64,000 bases of DNA from an uncultured Succiniclasticum sp. (GTDB taxonomy: Bacteria; Bacillota; Negativicutes; Acidaminococcales; Acidaminococcaceae), in contig CADCHY010000003.1 of the NCBI GenBank assembly GCA_902801365.1, positions 1-64,000 on the forward strand. Direction: 5' to 3'. Shown in pieces: positions 15,160 to 41,193 of the stretch. The notes beneath the pieces are model-generated. The model saw only the letters and a list, made by a program, of their open reading frames with translations, did no database searches and had not been told where the DNA came from. Both the position numbers and the translations under genes were made by a program. Each line of letters begins with the position of its first letter. The first letter of the stretch is position 1.

Positions 15160-16380
15160 TTAAAGTTTGTTCACAGTCCAGAATACACGGATTGGAAGAT
15201 TGGATGCGCCCGGCGGCGACCAGATAAACTCCGCATCTTTTCTTTTATGGTTCGGCGCATGGAGAAAAACGTCATCAACCTCATCTCCTTTGCCAAAAAA
15301 TATCTTTTTGCCGGGAATACTGATAATGTCTGTTTTTTCCTCCGAAAGCATGAGTCCTGCTCCGTAAAACTCCCCGCCCCAGGGATTGATTCCCATGCGG
15401 ATGGGATGTTCGCCAGCAACACTATAGATAAGATGATAAACAACACCGTAATTACCATGGTTTACTGTCTGCATGCCGGTTATCCTGTCTGTCCCTTTCA
15501 AGAAATAAAGATCGTCCGAGCCTGCCAGACACAAGGCCCTGACCTGATACCATTTCATCTGTATCGGTTTTTTGATAATATAAGTCAGATCTGCATTACG
15601 GTAAGTTCCCCGCAGCGGATGTTCGTCCATAGGTAAAACAGTTCCATCCTTCGAGAATTTCGCAACATCTTCCTCCGGATCACACATCATGATCACAATT
15701 TCAACCGGATGATTCGCATGGAAATCAAACATGCCGGTAAGCAGTTGTTCCGGTTTCAGGCGAGTACCAGCGTGTTGCATATTACGCCCCTGTGACAGAA
15801 CTTCCAGATATTCCCCTTTTGCCAGCGTGGTCAGCGGCAAATCGGAAACTTTTTGATAAAAGCTGTAATCCGGCAGTTCTTTGTTCTTTTCGTTGCTGTT
15901 CCTGCGTTTGTCACGTTTTTCTTTCAGTTCATTTTTGTGAGCTTTTTTCAATAATTCCTTGTAATCGTTAAAGTATCGCCTCTGTCCCTTTTGCGCGGAA
16001 ATGTAATACTGTTTATCCGGATCTCCGATTCCCCGGCATCCCCAGGTAATGGTGGTCAGTTTATTAACAGGTCGCATCAGCACAGCGAGTTTCTTGGTGT
16101 TTCCGGTTCCGTTTACGTGATGGAAAAACACCCTGCCTTCCCCTTCTACAATGTCCTTATATAAAATCCCGTTTTCATAGACCATCTCCGGGCTGTCAGA
16201 AAAGAGCAGCGTGGGACCGTTTTGCAGTACCCGGACATCCACATCCTGATACTTTTCCGGTACCTTCCGGTATCCCCCCGCTTCTGCGGATGAGGGAGCA
16301 AAAACGCCTCCCAGCATGCCGACACCTGCCAGCACTGCCGCAATGCGCGACGGCAATTTAAAAAACGAAAGCCAGTTCAT
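15160..16380 (-). CDS. Secreted protein of unknown function
   Basis: 406 residues from the preferred ATG 16378-16380, which has AGGA 6 nt upstream; the frame is open to 16440 without a better site. The N-terminus is a signal peptide (LPSRIAAVLAGVGMLGGVFA, likely cut after AEA). The mature protein has a highly basic insert around residues 150-175 (KKAHKNELKEKRDKRRNSNEKNK), with beta-rich segments on either side. Tryptophan/glycine patches occur near the end (INPWGGEFYGAGL, IWSPPGASNLPIRVFWTVN). Few cysteines. No known family recognised. Export to the periplasm or surface is likely. Confidence 0.7.
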   Translation of the reverse strand: MNWLSFFKLPSRIAAVLAGVGMLGGVFAPSSAEAGGYRKVPEKYQDVDVRVLQNGPTLLFSDSPEMVYENGILYKDIVEGEGRVFFHHVNGTGNTKKLAVLMRPVNKLTTITWGCRGIGDPDKQYYISAQKGQRRYFNDYKELLKKAHKNELKEKRDKRRNSNEKNKELPDYSFYQKVSDLPLTTLAKGEYLEVLSQGRNMQHAGTRLKPEQLLTGMFDFHANHPVEIVIMMCDPEEDVAKFSKDGTVLPMDEHPLRGTYRNADLTYIIKKPIQMKWYQVRALCLAGSDDLYFLKGTDRITGMQTVNHGNYGVVYHLIYSVAGEHPIRMGINPWGGEFYGAGLMLSEEKTDIISIPGKKIFFGKGDEVDDVFLHAPNHKRKDAEFIWSPPGASNLPIRVFWTVNKL

Positions 16381-16513
16381 TATTGTTCCTATCCTCCGGA
16401 AAAAGAAATACGGATGGACGATTCTGCCGTGCATCCGCATAAAGAATTATCAAAAAGCACTCAATCTGTTTTTACAACCGATATTCCAGGCCATAATAAC
16501 ACGTGCCTGTTAA

Positions 16514-32460: not shown

Positions 32461-32514
32461 CTGTTTTTTCACAGATTCCATATGTCATTTCAATTTCGAG
32501 AGGAGATTTTTATT

Positions 32515-32952
32515 ATGCCTTATGTAAACATCAAAATTACAAAAGAAGGTAACGTCACTCCGGAACAGAAACGCCAGCTGATTGAAGGCGCTACCAAACT
32601 GCTGGCCGATGTGCTGCACAAAAACACCAAAACTCTGGTTGTAACCATCGATGAAGTAGATATGGATAACTGGGGTATCGGCGGCGTGCCCGTAACGGAA
32701 CTCCGTAAGATCGCTAAAGAAAAAGCAGCGGCGGAAGCCAAAGCTGCCGAAGCTGCAGCTAAAGAAAAAGCCAAGGCAAAAAAGAAAGCGGAAAAAGAAA
32801 TGGCCAAAGCCGCCAAGGCAGAAGAAAAAGCAAAAAAGGAAGCCGAAAAAGTTGCCGCCAAAGCCGCTGAAGCTGCAGCTAAAGAAGAAGCAAAAACAAA
32901 AAAGGCCGAAGAAAAAGCAGCTAAAAAAGAGAAAAAATCAAAGAAAAAATAA
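32515..32952 (+). CDS. 4-oxalocrotonate tautomerase-family protein with a long Lys/Ala-rich tail
   Basis: Residues 1-62 are a 4-OT-type tautomerase: PYVNIKITKEG with the catalytic Pro2, then a KRQLIEGATKLLADVL helix and VVTIDEVDMDNWGIGGVPV. Such proteins normally end there. Here ~82 more residues follow (64-145), made almost only of Ala, Lys and Glu in a heptad-like pattern. The tail contains a repeated DNA unit (GCTGAAGCTGCAGCTAAAGAA-like at 32745 and 32867). It predicts one long charged helix or a histone-like nucleic-acid-binding tail. GAGGAG precedes ATG 32515. A strong terminator follows. Confidence 0.88.
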   Translation: MPYVNIKITKEGNVTPEQKRQLIEGATKLLADVLHKNTKTLVVTIDEVDMDNWGIGGVPVTELRKIAKEKAAAEAKAAEAAAKEKAKAKKKAEKEMAKAAKAEEKAKKEAEKVAAKAAEAAAKEEAKTKKAEEKAAKKEKKSKKK

Positions 32953-33042: not shown

Positions 33043-34395
33043 ATGGAAAAAGTTACCACAAGCAAACATACTCATAAACATAATAACAAATTAGCAACAA
33101 AATGGCTGTTTACCAAAAACCGTTCCTGCAGTTGCACCATGCCCGGTGTGTGGCGTGCGGTCAGTTTCTGCGACGGCTGCGCGGTCATCTTCCACAGCCC
33201 ATTAGGTTGCGCCCATGTGGCGATGCTGATGGATCTGGGCGCCCAATACCGGATCATCGGCGACCACCAAAATGAAAATCTGGATGCCGTGCCCCTTATC
33301 GCTTCTAACCTGCAGGAAAAGGACACCATCTTCGGCGGTGTGGAAAAACTGCGGGGCTGCATCAACCACGTTATGAAAACCTGGCAACCCAAATGTCTGA
33401 TCATTGCCACATCCTGCGTAGCGGGCGTCATCGGGGACGACGTGGAACAGGAAGCCGAAGATGCGGAAGCAGAATATCACATCCCTGTCCTCTGCGTTCC
33501 CTATGGTGGTTTTCTGGGCGGTGAATATTCCGACGGCTATTTCCAGACAGTGCGGCTGATTATGGATCGCTTCATCCAACCGCAGCCGAAAGTTCCGAAC
33601 CGGGTCCTGCTGTTTGGCGACCAGATGGGACCCTGTGGCCAGTACGCCCGGGAGGTAAAACGGCTGCTTTCGTATTTTGATTTGGAAGTAAAATGGCAGT
33701 TCCCAGGCTACGTTCCTTTTGAGGAGTGGAGTGAACTGTCCACGGCTTCCCTACTTATTCCGCTGAATTACGCAGGACAGACACAGGGCGGTCTGGAAAA
33801 GACAGCTGCCTCATGGGCGGAACAGTTTGGCACCCCTTCCATCCGGGATGTTTACCCCGTAGGCTGGCACAACACCTGCGCGTGGCTGCGTAAGATTGCG
33901 GAATTTGTGAAAGACGAAGTAAAAGGCGAAGCCGTGATCCGGCAGGAAGAAGAACGGCTGAAGGGGTACGTAAAATCCATTTTACCCGTGACCCAAAACA
34001 AAAAAGCGGTGCTGGGCATCGGCCGCGGCCCCCGCTGGTACAACCCGGCAGAAACATTAAATACCATACAGCGGATGCAGATGAACCTGTCGGCTGTGAT
34101 CCTGTACGATAAACTGATGGACGAAGAAAGAGATGCTGTCATCGCCGCTGTGGAAGACTGGAAAAAGGCGGCGCAGTTTCCGGACATTCCGCTTATCACC
34201 AACGGCGATTATACAGACTGTCTGGAACAGGCAGACGTGCTGCTGACCACAGACGAACTGCCCGGCAATCCGGTGAAGCAGTTCTTCATCCCCATGGTTC
34301 CCCTGGCCGGAACCGATGGCGAGCTCATTGTGATGCGTACCATTTACCGGTTACTGTGCCGGTACGGAAACAAAGGAGGGATTGCGTATGCGTGA
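33043..34395 (+). CDS. Nitrogenase component 1-like protein (NifD/NifE-type half)
   Basis: 450 residues of the oxidoreductase/nitrogenase component 1 family, which holds iron-sulfur or complex metal clusters and takes electrons from a NifH-like Fe protein. Cluster-type cysteines are Cys56 in HSPLGCAHVA and Cys125 in IATSCVAGVIGDDV, with additional Cys29/31/43/46 (CSC, FCDGC). The NifD/E signature EKDTIFGGVEKL is present. C-terminal Rossmann-like segments follow (VPNRVLLFGDQMGPCGQYAREVKRLL). ATG 33043 is chosen with weak AAAGG upstream; the frame opens at 32995. It overlaps the next gene by 8 nt. No NifH, NifB or BchL-like gene is in the window, so the substrate is unknown. True nitrogen fixation is not supported. 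Confidence 0.88.
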   Translation: MEKVTTSKHTHKHNNKLATKWLFTKNRSCSCTMPGVWRAVSFCDGCAVIFHSPLGCAHVAMLMDLGAQYRIIGDHQNENLDAVPLIASNLQEKDTIFGGVEKLRGCINHVMKTWQPKCLIIATSCVAGVIGDDVEQEAEDAEAEYHIPVLCVPYGGFLGGEYSDGYFQTVRLIMDRFIQPQPKVPNRVLLFGDQMGPCGQYAREVKRLLSYFDLEVKWQFPGYVPFEEWSELSTASLLIPLNYAGQTQGGLEKTAASWAEQFGTPSIRDVYPVGWHNTCAWLRKIAEFVKDEVKGEAVIRQEEERLKGYVKSILPVTQNKKAVLGIGRGPRWYNPAETLNTIQRMQMNLSAVILYDKLMDEERDAVIAAVEDWKKAAQFPDIPLITNGDYTDCLEQADVLLTTDELPGNPVKQFFIPMVPLAGTDGELIVMRTIYRLLCRYGNKGGIAYA

Positions 34396-35677
34396 CAACG
34401 ACTTCAAAACCTCCTGCCATCATATGTCCACCTGCGCCCTCACCGGCGCCTCTGCGTTTTTCGATGCCATCCCCGGCAGTTTCATGCTGATCAACGGACC
34501 TCTCTGGTGTTATTTTTACGCCATGAAATATGTAGAGGATTACGATGCCTCCGCTCTGCGGCGTTTCCACTGCACCCAGCCGGAAGGCAACGCGCTGGTC
34601 TACGGAACAGAAAAAGACCTGCTGGCCGGTCTGGATTTTGTAAAAGCAAACTTTACGCCGGAACGTATCTTTATCCTCAATAACTGCAGCGTCAGTCTGG
34701 TTGGCGACGACATCGCGGGCATCGCAGCCAGAGCGGAACTCCCCTGTCCCGTTTACGCCGCGGACTGCGGCGGCATAGCCGGAGATTTTGCGGAAGGATA
34801 TGAAATCGCGTTGCTGCGGACGATTGCGGAAGTGAAAAAGAACGCAAAAGACAAAAGTGATTTAGCTTCACCTTCCGTGAACTTATTAGGCCTTTCCCCT
34901 ACTTACTTCCGGGGTGAGGAAGACATAAAAGAAATCCGCCGCATTCTGGAAACGGCGGGGTATCATATCAACGCCATTCCCGGCGGCGGTTCGGCCTGGG
35001 ACGAAATCATGGAACTGCCCCAGGCAGATTTGAATCTTGTACTGCGAGACGAACTTGCCTTGAAAGCAGCCAAAGAACTGGAATCAGAATTCGGCACGCC
35101 GTATCTTTCCGCCGGCATGCCGTATGGAATTCAAGGAACCCTGGCATGGTTAGAAAAAATCAACACTGTCCTGCCTGCCACAAATCTGAAAACCGTCCGG
35201 CAGGAAGCGGAAACCGTCAACGCCCGTTTACAGTTCCGCAGCAGCAACATGCAGTCGCTGTGGGGGCCCCTGTGGTTCGACAACATTCTCATTGCCGCAC
35301 CGCCCTCGGAAGCGGCAGGCATTGCGGAAGCCGTACGGGGCGAGTGGGCCGACACAGGCAACCTGGTGATCCATTTTACAGAGGACACACCTCTGCGTCC
35401 CAAAGCTGCTAATAAAATCTGTGTGACAGGCAAAGACGATGCAGCCATGAAAGAAACCTTTGAAAACTGGACGGGTGGTCTTGTAATCGGCTCTTCTCTC
35501 GAGACAAGCCGTTTCGTACGTTTAAAAAAGCCTTTTGTTAATTGCAACATCGTACTGCCTTCGTACCACGAAATCATCGCCACCGACTCTCCACTCTGCG
35601 GAATCCGCGGCGCCTCTTACCTGTTCGAAAGAATCTGGAACGCAAAATTAAACAGCTGCATGGAAGAGGTAAAATAA
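34388..35677 (+). CDS. Nitrogenase component 1-like protein (NifK/NifN-type half)
   Basis: The second subunit of the same putative complex, 429 residues. Potential cluster cysteines: Cys10 and Cys16 (SCHHMSTCALTGA), Cys41 in INGPLWCYFYA, Cys62 and Cys100 in LNNCSVSLVGDDIAGIA. The family motif VYGTEKDLLAGL aligns with the region before the GDD motif. The Rossmann-like part has VNLLGLSPTYFRGEEDIKEIRRILETAGYHI. ATG 34388 has GGAGGG at 7 nt and overlaps the upstream stop; translational coupling implies an obligate pair. A strong terminator closes the operon. Related characterised systems include CfbD, BchNB and methylthio-alkane reductase; assignment to any is not possible here. Confidence 0.87.
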   Translation: MRDNDFKTSCHHMSTCALTGASAFFDAIPGSFMLINGPLWCYFYAMKYVEDYDASALRRFHCTQPEGNALVYGTEKDLLAGLDFVKANFTPERIFILNNCSVSLVGDDIAGIAARAELPCPVYAADCGGIAGDFAEGYEIALLRTIAEVKKNAKDKSDLASPSVNLLGLSPTYFRGEEDIKEIRRILETAGYHINAIPGGGSAWDEIMELPQADLNLVLRDELALKAAKELESEFGTPYLSAGMPYGIQGTLAWLEKINTVLPATNLKTVRQEAETVNARLQFRSSNMQSLWGPLWFDNILIAAPPSEAAGIAEAVRGEWADTGNLVIHFTEDTPLRPKAANKICVTGKDDAAMKETFENWTGGLVIGSSLETSRFVRLKKPFVNCNIVLPSYHEIIATDSPLCGIRGASYLFERIWNAKLNSCMEEVK

Positions 35678-36169: not shown

Positions 36170-36859
36170 CTATCTTTGCCGTTTGGGAACATCAGAATCT
36201 TCACACATAATAGGAAACAGCAGCTCCGCTACATGCACCGCCTGTTTTCCTTCCGGCAGTCCCTGCACCAGTCCGGAAAGACAGGAGTTACAGTAACAGG
36301 CCACCCGCTCCGTTGTAAAACGATGGCAGTAATTCTTAAGGTATGCGTCGATTTCTTCCGGAGATTTCGGCTGCATATCTTTTTTGATTTCCGCAAAACG
36401 CAGCGGCGCTATCGTAAAATTATCGGGACGTATGGGACCGAGTAAAAAGCTGCCGTCAAAGTTGATTTCTTCTTCTGTACCGGGAAGCTCCACGATTTCC
36501 ACATTCATTTTGCGGAGCACGCTGCGCACCGCTGCCTTTTCCGCTTCTCTCGCCTTGGCACGGTAACAGTCCTGCAGCGTGATGCGTTCTCCTTTGTAAT
36601 CCGGGAACGGAAAGTCCGGCAGGCTGTCGAAGAATTCATACAGGCTGATCAGCTTTGCGGCCGGCCGGTTCTCCCCGATAATGATACTGCAGGTCTCACA
36701 AACGGTAATTACGGTATCGTTCCAACCCGACAACGCTTTATGCCCCGGACGGCAGCAACCGACCACACGTACTCCTTTCGTGGTCATAAAGCTTTTTATC
36801 TTTTCAGAAGTTTCCGGACGCAGTTTTGTAAAATTACAGCTGGGAAAATAGTATTTCAT
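36170..36859 (-). CDS. Cysteine-rich (CCG-type) protein, possible iron-sulfur or thiol redox protein
   Basis: 229 residues. It begins MKYYFPSCNFTKLRP and has cysteine clusters GCCRPGHK, TVCETCSIIIGE and, near the C-terminus, HRFTTERVACYCNSCLSGL. The PSCNFT...GCCRPGH...CETC order resembles the cysteine-rich CCG domain of heterodisulfide reductase HdrB and GlpC, but only loosely. GGAGG lies 9 nt before ATG 36857-36859. It is 21 nt downstream of the SLH porin gene and probably cotranscribed. No signal peptide, so cytoplasmic. Confidence 0.65.
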   Translation of the reverse strand: MKYYFPSCNFTKLRPETSEKIKSFMTTKGVRVVGCCRPGHKALSGWNDTVITVCETCSIIIGENRPAAKLISLYEFFDSLPDFPFPDYKGERITLQDCYRAKAREAEKAAVRSVLRKMNVEIVELPGTEEEINFDGSFLLGPIRPDNFTIAPLRFAEIKKDMQPKSPEEIDAYLKNYCHRFTTERVACYCNSCLSGLVQGLPEGKQAVHVAELLFPIMCEDSDVPKRQR

Positions 36860-36880
36860 AAACATCTTCCTCCCGTAAAA

Positions 36881-39753: not shown

Positions 39754-41193
39754 ATGTACAATCCCAAGTCATTACTGGCCGATGAGTTTATCGACCACCA
39801 GGAAATCCTGGATACGCTGGCCTATGCCGACGCTAACAAAGATAACAAAGAATTGATTGAAAGCCTTTTGGAAAAGGCCCGTCCCCGCTGGATTAACGGA
39901 CAGTTGAACTGTACCGGCCTTACCCATCGGGAAGCTTCCGTCCTGCTGTCCTGTGAAGACCCCGCATTAAACGAAAAAATGTTCAAACTGGCGGAAGAAA
40001 TCAAGAAGGCGTTTTACGGCAACCGCATCGTTCTTTTCGCTCCGCTGTACCTTTCCAATTACTGCATTAACGGCTGCGTATACTGCCCGTACCACAGCAT
40101 CAACAAGAACATTCCCCGTAAAAAGCTGAACCAGGAAGAAGTAAAACGGCAGGTAATCGCACTGCAGGATATGGGACACAAGCGCCTTGCACTGGAAGCT
40201 GGTGAAGATCCGTTCCATAACCCCATCGAATACATTCTGGAATGTATCAAAACGATATATTCCATCAAGCACAAAAACGGGGCGATCCGCCGCGTCAATG
40301 TGAATATTGCGGCCACCACCGTGGAGAATTACCGCAAGCTGAAGGAAGCCGGCATCGGTACCTACATCCTGTTCCAGGAAACGTACCACAAGGAAAGCTA
40401 CCTGAAGCTCCATCCCTTCGGCCCCAAGCATGATTACAACTATCATACGGAAGCTATGGACCGGGCCATGGAAGGCGGCATCGACGATGTCGGCCTGGGT
40501 GTATTGTTCGGACTGGAACTGTACCGTTATGAATTTGCAGGTCTGCTGATGCACGCGGAACATCTGGAAGCAGTGCACGGTGTAGGTCCCCACACCATCA
40601 GCGTGCCCCGCATCAAAAAGGCGGATGATATCGATCCCTCAGTATTCGACAACGGTATCTCAGATGATATTTTTGCCAAACTGATTGCCCTGATCCGGAT
40701 CAGCGTGCCCTACACCGGCATGATCATCTCCACCCGGGAAAGCCAGGAAGTCCGCGCGAGAGCATTGCATCTGGGTATCTCCCAAATCTCCGGCGCGTCC
40801 CGGACCTCCGTAGGCGGTTACGACGAGCCGGAAAGGCCCCATGATACGGAACAGTTCGACGTATCTGACCAGCGTACGCTGGACGAGGTCATCGCCTGGC
40901 TCATGGATATGGGCTTTATTCCTTCCTTCTGCACCGCCTGTTACCGCGCGGGCCGCACCGGCGACCGTTTCATGAGCCTGTGCAAGACGGGGCAGATCCA
41001 GAATTGCTGCCATCCCAATGCGCTGATGACACTGAAAGAGTTTTTGGTTGATTATGCTTCGGAAGAAACGCGCCGCAAGGGCGAAGCTATGATTATGTCT
41101 GAAATCCCCACCATCCCCAATGAAAAAGTCCGTTCCGCCCTTGTAAAATATCTGGAACGCATCGAAGGCGGAGAACGGGATTTCAGGTTCTGA
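39754..41193 (+). CDS. hydG: [FeFe]-hydrogenase maturase HydG
   Basis: Radical-SAM tyrosine lyase that makes CO and cyanide for the hydrogenase H-cluster. 479 residues. The SAM cluster cysteines are Cys104, Cys108 and Cys111 (YCINGCVYCPYHS). The barrel includes RKKLNQEEVKRQVIALQDMGHKRLALEAGEDP, and the C-terminal auxiliary-cluster region is FCTACYRAGRTGDRFMSLCKTGQIQNCCHPNALMTLKEFL, diagnostic for HydG over ThiH. AAGAAGGAA precedes the ATG. hydE, hydF and a hydrogenase are not in the window. Single-gene unit. Confidence 0.96.
   Translation: MYNPKSLLADEFIDHQEILDTLAYADANKDNKELIESLLEKARPRWINGQLNCTGLTHREASVLLSCEDPALNEKMFKLAEEIKKAFYGNRIVLFAPLYLSNYCINGCVYCPYHSINKNIPRKKLNQEEVKRQVIALQDMGHKRLALEAGEDPFHNPIEYILECIKTIYSIKHKNGAIRRVNVNIAATTVENYRKLKEAGIGTYILFQETYHKESYLKLHPFGPKHDYNYHTEAMDRAMEGGIDDVGLGVLFGLELYRYEFAGLLMHAEHLEAVHGVGPHTISVPRIKKADDIDPSVFDNGISDDIFAKLIALIRISVPYTGMIISTRESQEVRARALHLGISQISGASRTSVGGYDEPERPHDTEQFDVSDQRTLDEVIAWLMDMGFIPSFCTACYRAGRTGDRFMSLCKTGQIQNCCHPNALMTLKEFLVDYASEETRRKGEAMIMSEIPTIPNEKVRSALVKYLERIEGGERDFRF

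Follow-up and report, generated by a model that had tools for sequence, protein, structure and literature searches.

The gene pair and its cluster-ligand sites

The window, the whole 64,000-nucleotide stretch of DNA analysed here, lies on contig 3 of a rumen Succiniclasticum genome (Acidaminococcaceae; 2.05 Mb, 93% complete), in agreement with the gut anaerobe supposed in the first-pass annotation. It holds two overlapping genes, D and K, which are found as that annotation described them and both match the same protein family:

33043-34395, plus strand: D subunit, NifD/E-like, 450 amino acids (PF00148, 8.8e-47, 160 bits)
34382-35677, plus strand: K subunit, NifK/N-like, 431 amino acids from the TTG at 34382 or 429 from the ATG at 34388

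The end of D is overlapped by the start of K, both reading frames are open and the pair is intact. K matches PF00148 at 6.9e-53 (180 bits), and both subunits score far above the family cut-off of 28.6 bits. The AF2 models of D (pLDDT 86) and K (pLDDT 92) have the nitrogenase component-1 fold. Among solved folds, BchB of DPOR is closest to the K model (Z 38.3, rmsd 2.8, 405 aligned), with MarK at Z 36.9, and the D model is about equally near MarD (Z 26.4) and BchB (Z 26.1); these VIA-align lists measure closeness of fold only, and no family is excluded by them. In sequence, the best PDB match of D is MarD (9d9u/9fmg, 1.8e-27). By profile match and fold, D and K are members of the nitrogenase component-1 superfamily (PF00148).

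To locate cluster ligands, we aligned D and K with NifD/K, VnfD/K, MarD/K and the Bch subunits, and counted residues over 40 D and 42 K homologues. The relevant positions are as follows:

33133-33135, plus strand: D Cys31, equivalent to NifD Cys62, P-cluster position (40/40 in the family)
33208-33210, plus strand: D Cys56, equivalent to NifD Cys88, P-cluster position (40/40)
33415-33417, plus strand: D Cys125, equivalent to NifD Cys154, P-cluster position (40/40)
34433-34435, plus strand: K Cys18 (Cys16 from the ATG at 34388), equivalent to NifK Cys70 (42/42)
34508-34510, plus strand: K Cys43 (Cys41 from the ATG), equivalent to NifK Cys95 (42/42)
34685-34687, plus strand: K Cys102 (Cys100 from the ATG), equivalent to NifK Cys153 (41/42)
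33766-33768, plus strand: D Asn242, at the FeMo-co ligand column of NifD Cys275 and MarD Cys270
34252-34254, plus strand: D Asp404, aligned with His429, a cluster ligand in MarD

The GDD motif and the four cysteines named earlier (D Cys56 and Cys125, K Cys41 and Cys100) are all present, although one more cysteine per triad, D Cys31 and K Cys16, had been overlooked. All six P-cluster positions are retained, which speaks against decay by loss of cluster ligands. The FeMo-co ligands, whose inspection had been proposed, present a different picture. At the Cys275/Cys270 column, cysteine occurs in 0 of 40 D homologues and glycine in 28, while the loop bearing NifD His442 is absent from D in the alignment. 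The column of MarD His429 holds histidine in 22 of 40 members, aspartate in Succiniclasticum and mostly asparagine in Dialister. Furthermore, no nifB was found in the 93%-complete genome, which carries only one DK pair and thus no second pair that could stand for NifEN. Because the six cysteines are kept, the Cys275 equivalent is lost and nifB is missing, D/K probably has a P-cluster-type site and probably lacks a FeMo-co type cofactor, as far as alignment can tell.

Placement among nitrogenase-like families

The superfamily phylogeny proposed for both proteins was built as one joint tree of 122 sequences, a quick tree with long Bch branches. Its references were Nif, Vnf, Mar and Bch sequences, with no CfbD, Isr or Nfa, and it was read for clades, with no claim on deep order. 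All D homologues group together (46 rows, SH-aLRT 100, stem 1.03), as do the K homologues in a clade of their own (47 rows, SH-aLRT 100, stem 0.78), and both clades are separate from these references and from a Sporomusa termitida plasmid pair. CfbD was compared by model score and Isr by its reported cysteine pattern (PMC11423573). With 38.5 bits against a cut-off of 268.4 for the CfbD model, and separate clades in the tree, neither comparison puts the pair within a characterised clade such as CfbD; such a placement had been named as a way in which the first reading might fail.

Membership in nitrogenase itself (Nif/Vnf/Anf) is ruled out by Asn242 at the Cys275 column, the absent His442 segment and the lack of NifB and NifEN. 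More specifically, the lost FeMo-co cysteine, the missing His442 loop and the absence of nifB mean that the pair is neither a nitrogenase nor a typical methylthio-alkane reductase. Together with the separate clades, this supports the earlier proposal of an uncharacterised nitrogenase-like reductase.

Parallels exist among the known systems without FeMo-co. DPOR (BchLNB) and COR (BchXYZ) likewise combine an Fe protein with a D/K-type heteromer, BchB is the nearest solved fold to K, and the order bchL-bchH-bchB-bchN sets a CobN-family chelatase beside a nitrogenase-like reductase, and the plasmid also carries bchI/bchD at another site. However, the family has six cysteines at its cluster site, with cysteine where BchB has aspartate, no phototrophy genes were seen, and scores lie far below the BchB, BchN and BchZ cut-offs. 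DPOR/COR membership is ruled out by the separate clades of the quick tree and by 102 bits against a BchB cut-off of 490. CfbCD is also a nitrogenase-like tetrapyrrole reductase without FeMo-co, but CfbD is a homodimer without a K partner, whereas two distinct subunits are co-encoded here; these two subunits and the CfbD score exclude the pair from that family.

MarBHDK shares the six P-cluster cysteines with the present pair. Mar requires an [Fe8S9C] cluster and MarB (PMC12552129), whereas the ligand cysteine and NifB are absent here, and Mar membership is ruled out by a Cys270 column without cysteine in 40 members and by the lack of nifB. IsrBHDK, a group IV nitrogenase-like H-D-K system reported also from intestinal bacteria, resembles the family in these respects, but IsrD is reported to retain one of three P-cluster cysteines (PMC11423573). 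D keeps all three, which rules out Isr membership by this pattern, and the partner genes differ. That the pair is nevertheless a sulfur-compound reductase of the Mar or Isr kind could be argued from MarD as the closest solved sequence to D and from the histidine found at the His429 column in many family members. We consider this extremely improbable, given that the genome has no NifB/MarB, Cys270 is replaced throughout the 40 members, MarD/K fall in other clades, IsrD differs in its cysteines, and the partner genes encode a chelatase and an importer.

The Fe protein and partner genes

The first-pass annotation described the pair as lacking an Fe-protein gene. This is correct within the window, where no NifH-like gene was found, but not genome-wide: the search for such a reductase and for conserved partners revealed one solitary NifH-like gene (H) on contig C14 (C14:13497-14318), the sole strong PF00142 match in the genome (4e-111), and, in relatives, CobN, an importer and a riboswitch. 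The other PF00142 match, on C15, is weak and of ParA/MinD type (3.9e-15). H contains the P-loop and the two [4Fe-4S] cysteines, Cys95 and Cys129, all conserved across the family, and it scores above the NCBI nifH cut-off (TIGR01287, 397.2 against 394.35 bits); by these sequence features, it is a NifH-like Fe-protein gene. It also comes close to the CfbC model (379 bits, just below the cut-off of 402), a further likeness to CfbCD. One consequence is that a gene from a genome incapable of nitrogen fixation can pass NCBI's nifH cut-off.

H, D and K are contiguous in most Succiniclasticum species, in Dialister and in Veillonella, while the window and its closest relatives (L007, L008) have DK without an adjacent H. 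The solitary H shares 93% identity with an S. ruminis copy that adjoins a second, divergent DK pair. Because of this identity, we infer that it probably derives from an S. ruminis-type second H-DK set and serves DK in trans.

Directly upstream of H (L005:2829-7930) lie a recombinase, a large DNA-polymerase-like ORF and an integrase. G003 (L109) has no such stretch at the corresponding place, so a mobile element has probably integrated beside H. In the gap that separates the integrase from H, Rfam gives a sub-threshold tmRNA match (L005:8197-8450, 26.5 bits, E 1.5e-8), and ARAGORN found no tmRNA near H.

The separation of H from DK raises the question of whether the pair is a remnant in the window's lineage that has lost its own adjacent H and either drifts or uses the solitary H inefficiently. 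The loss of H in the window, L007 and L008, set against its adjacency in other Succiniclasticum, and the absence of the radical SAM partner from this genome (G000) would fit such a history. It appears improbable, since both frames are open, D and K, with 77-92% identity to other species, retain all cluster cysteines and family-conserved residues, and the solitary H is itself intact, with 93-99% identity retained in G001 and G003.

To characterise the neighbourhood, we counted same-strand genes within 9 kb in 31 H-D-K loci, the closest Succiniclasticum set excluded. CobN is the most frequent partner (21 loci), followed by Peripla_BP_2 substrate-binding proteins (20), TonB receptors (17), FecCD permeases (16), ChlI/D-like AAA proteins (14), SPASM radical SAM proteins (13), CbiZ (10), ABC ATPases (8) and CbiK (5), and at least three partners are present in 24 of the 31 loci. 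Outside the window's genus, 41 of 52 D genes share their contig with a CobN no more than 15 kb away. Among 250 Negativicutes genomes, 57 have both D and CobN, 5 D only, 33 CobN only and 155 neither (Fisher p 9e-27, a statistic that ignores relatedness). Among these partners, the chelatase is a CobN homologue of full length, accompanied by ChlI/D-like AAA proteins, as in CobNST, HmuS and BtuS. In the open PMC literature, as opposed to subscription papers, our search found no account of a link between such systems, or a cobalamin riboswitch, and a nitrogenase-like enzyme.

In Isr systems, H is directly preceded by the BciD-like radical SAM gene IsrB. A SPASM-type radical SAM gene occurs near H-D-K in some relatives; it is absent from the window's genome and thereby ruled out as an essential partner there. 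In S. ruminis, a large cluster on C27 (L092, L093, L157, L158) holds a single H together with two more divergent DK pairs and two more CobN genes, besides TonB receptors, CbiZ and a SPASM radical SAM gene.

The window's genome contains the parts of the system spread over three unlinked loci (DK, H and CobN). Its CobN is split by a contig break between the end of C29 and the start of C12, and the genes after it encode ChlI/D, an ABC-2 exporter, Peripla_BP_2, FecCD and an ABC ATPase. This operon is orthologous to that of the relatives. In Dialister succinatiphilus, a CobN with 65% identity to this one directly follows D and K.

Cobalamin riboswitches (RF00174, Rfam, 95-118 bits) were found 690-1160 bases upstream of D, ahead of H, in eight loci (L097, L128, L130, L132, L133, L135, L137 and L140). 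At the DK, H and CobN loci of the window's genome, none was found even with permissive settings; its two cobalamin riboswitches lie by cobalamin-synthesis genes (C10) and by a C19 region that holds methylmalonyl-CoA-mutase-type genes. ZMP-ZTP riboswitches also occur near two H-D-K loci (L129:11259-11339 and L136:817-901).

A predicted tetrapyrrole reductase and its competing explanations

Our preferred reading is that DK would be the catalytic part of an ATP-dependent nitrogenase-like tetrapyrrole reductase, most likely acting on a corrinoid or cobalt-tetrapyrrole, to which we assign a probability of about 0.5. The Fe protein from C14, presumably in complex with DK, would deliver low-potential electrons with ATP hydrolysis. 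The acceptor would be a putative P-cluster-type Fe-S cluster held by the six cysteines at the D/K interface, and this cluster would reduce a substrate seated where nitrogenase holds FeMo-co, in the manner of DPOR, COR and CfbCD. This substrate may enter through the BtuFCD/FecCD-type importer and be handled by the CobN-ChlI/D chelatase, with corrinoid salvage, remodelling or metal exchange as possible roles. The reaction is thus a prediction, including the tetrapyrrole class, its corrinoid identity and the bond or metal reduced.

The parallels with the bchL-bchH-bchB-bchN gene set and with CfbCD suggest a tetrapyrrole reductase, and a corrinoid is favoured as its substrate because of the riboswitch, CbiZ and the CobN score, with the operon CobN reaching 971 bits against an equivalog cut-off of 822. 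A narrower proposal, which we put forward tentatively and would not bet on, is that a six-cysteine reductase without FeMo-co, working with CobN-ChlI/D on imported corrinoids, could carry out reductive cobalt exchange or corrin-ring reduction.

Several observations weigh against the corrinoid reading. The three loci of the window's genome are unlinked and carry no riboswitch; 33 sampled genomes have CobN without D and 5 have D without CobN; and two Succiniclasticum assemblies (G011 and G013) contain DK with no strong H match. The need for salvage is also not obvious, as the organism has its own corrin-synthesis genes. Furthermore, FecCD/Peripla_BP_2 importers and TonB receptors are also used for heme and siderophores, and the tetrapyrrole-reducing relatives known so far have simpler [4Fe-4S] clusters, without a six-cysteine P-cluster site.

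The main rival to the corrinoid reading is anaerobic use of heme or porphyrin, in which imported heme would be stripped of its iron by the CobN homologue as an HmuS-like dechelatase and H-D-K would reduce the porphyrin ring. The CobN-family HmuS is a proven heme dechelatase of gut anaerobes (PMC12583661) and is among the PDB matches of the operon CobN. Importers and receptors of these types are common to heme uptake, and in G003 a CbiK homologue with an N-terminal extension resembling a signal peptide stands directly before CobN. We nonetheless judge heme use unlikely: solved CobN is matched far better than HmuS, the CobN equivalog cut-off is exceeded, the B12 model gives the TonB receptor its highest score (yet below that model's cut-off), and cobalamin riboswitches and CbiZ accompany H-D-K in 8 loci and in 10 of 31, respectively.

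A biosynthetic step, either in the anaerobic cobalamin pathway of the organism itself, for instance in place of the precorrin-6A reductase CbiJ, or in an F430-like nickel-tetrapyrrole pathway, would accord with DPOR, COR and CfbCD as biosynthetic ring reductases and with the riboswitch that cobalamin genes typically carry. It is very improbable, as DK lies beside import genes and not in a cbi operon, and the CfbD score is low. Replacement of CbiJ is unlikely because CbiJ co-occurs with DK: each of the 14 Succiniclasticum genomes has it, the window's among them, and so do many family members that lack DK.

As it stands, DK represents a distinct nitrogenase-like clade that is common among Negativicutes of the gut and rumen and whose substrate class can be tested. 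If correct, the corrinoid reading would add a new step to corrinoid metabolism, extend nitrogenase-like tetrapyrrole reduction beyond chlorophyll and F430, and may explain why CobN is retained in anaerobes with early-cobalt-insertion pathways.

Other genes in the window were noted alongside the pair:

15163-16440, minus strand: 426-amino-acid protein with a possible signal peptide, no Pfam or NCBIfam match
36170-36865, minus strand: 231-amino-acid Cys-rich protein, convergent with K
32482-32952, plus strand: tautomerase of the 4-oxalocrotonate type, with a long tail rich in Lys and Ala, directly before D
39754-41193, plus strand: HydG, the radical SAM maturase of [FeFe] hydrogenase (915 bits, cut-off 312)

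Other Succiniclasticum loci keep the stretch at 36170-36865 next to DK, where it shows as antisense ORFs. Pfam, NCBIfam and PDB gave no usable assignment for it: there is no Pfam match, the NCBIfam match to diclust_near_Sec is weak and partial (39.7 bits against 530), and PDB rows with low E-values span 22-24 residues with no counted domain and look like chance. The tautomerase is kept in five loci.
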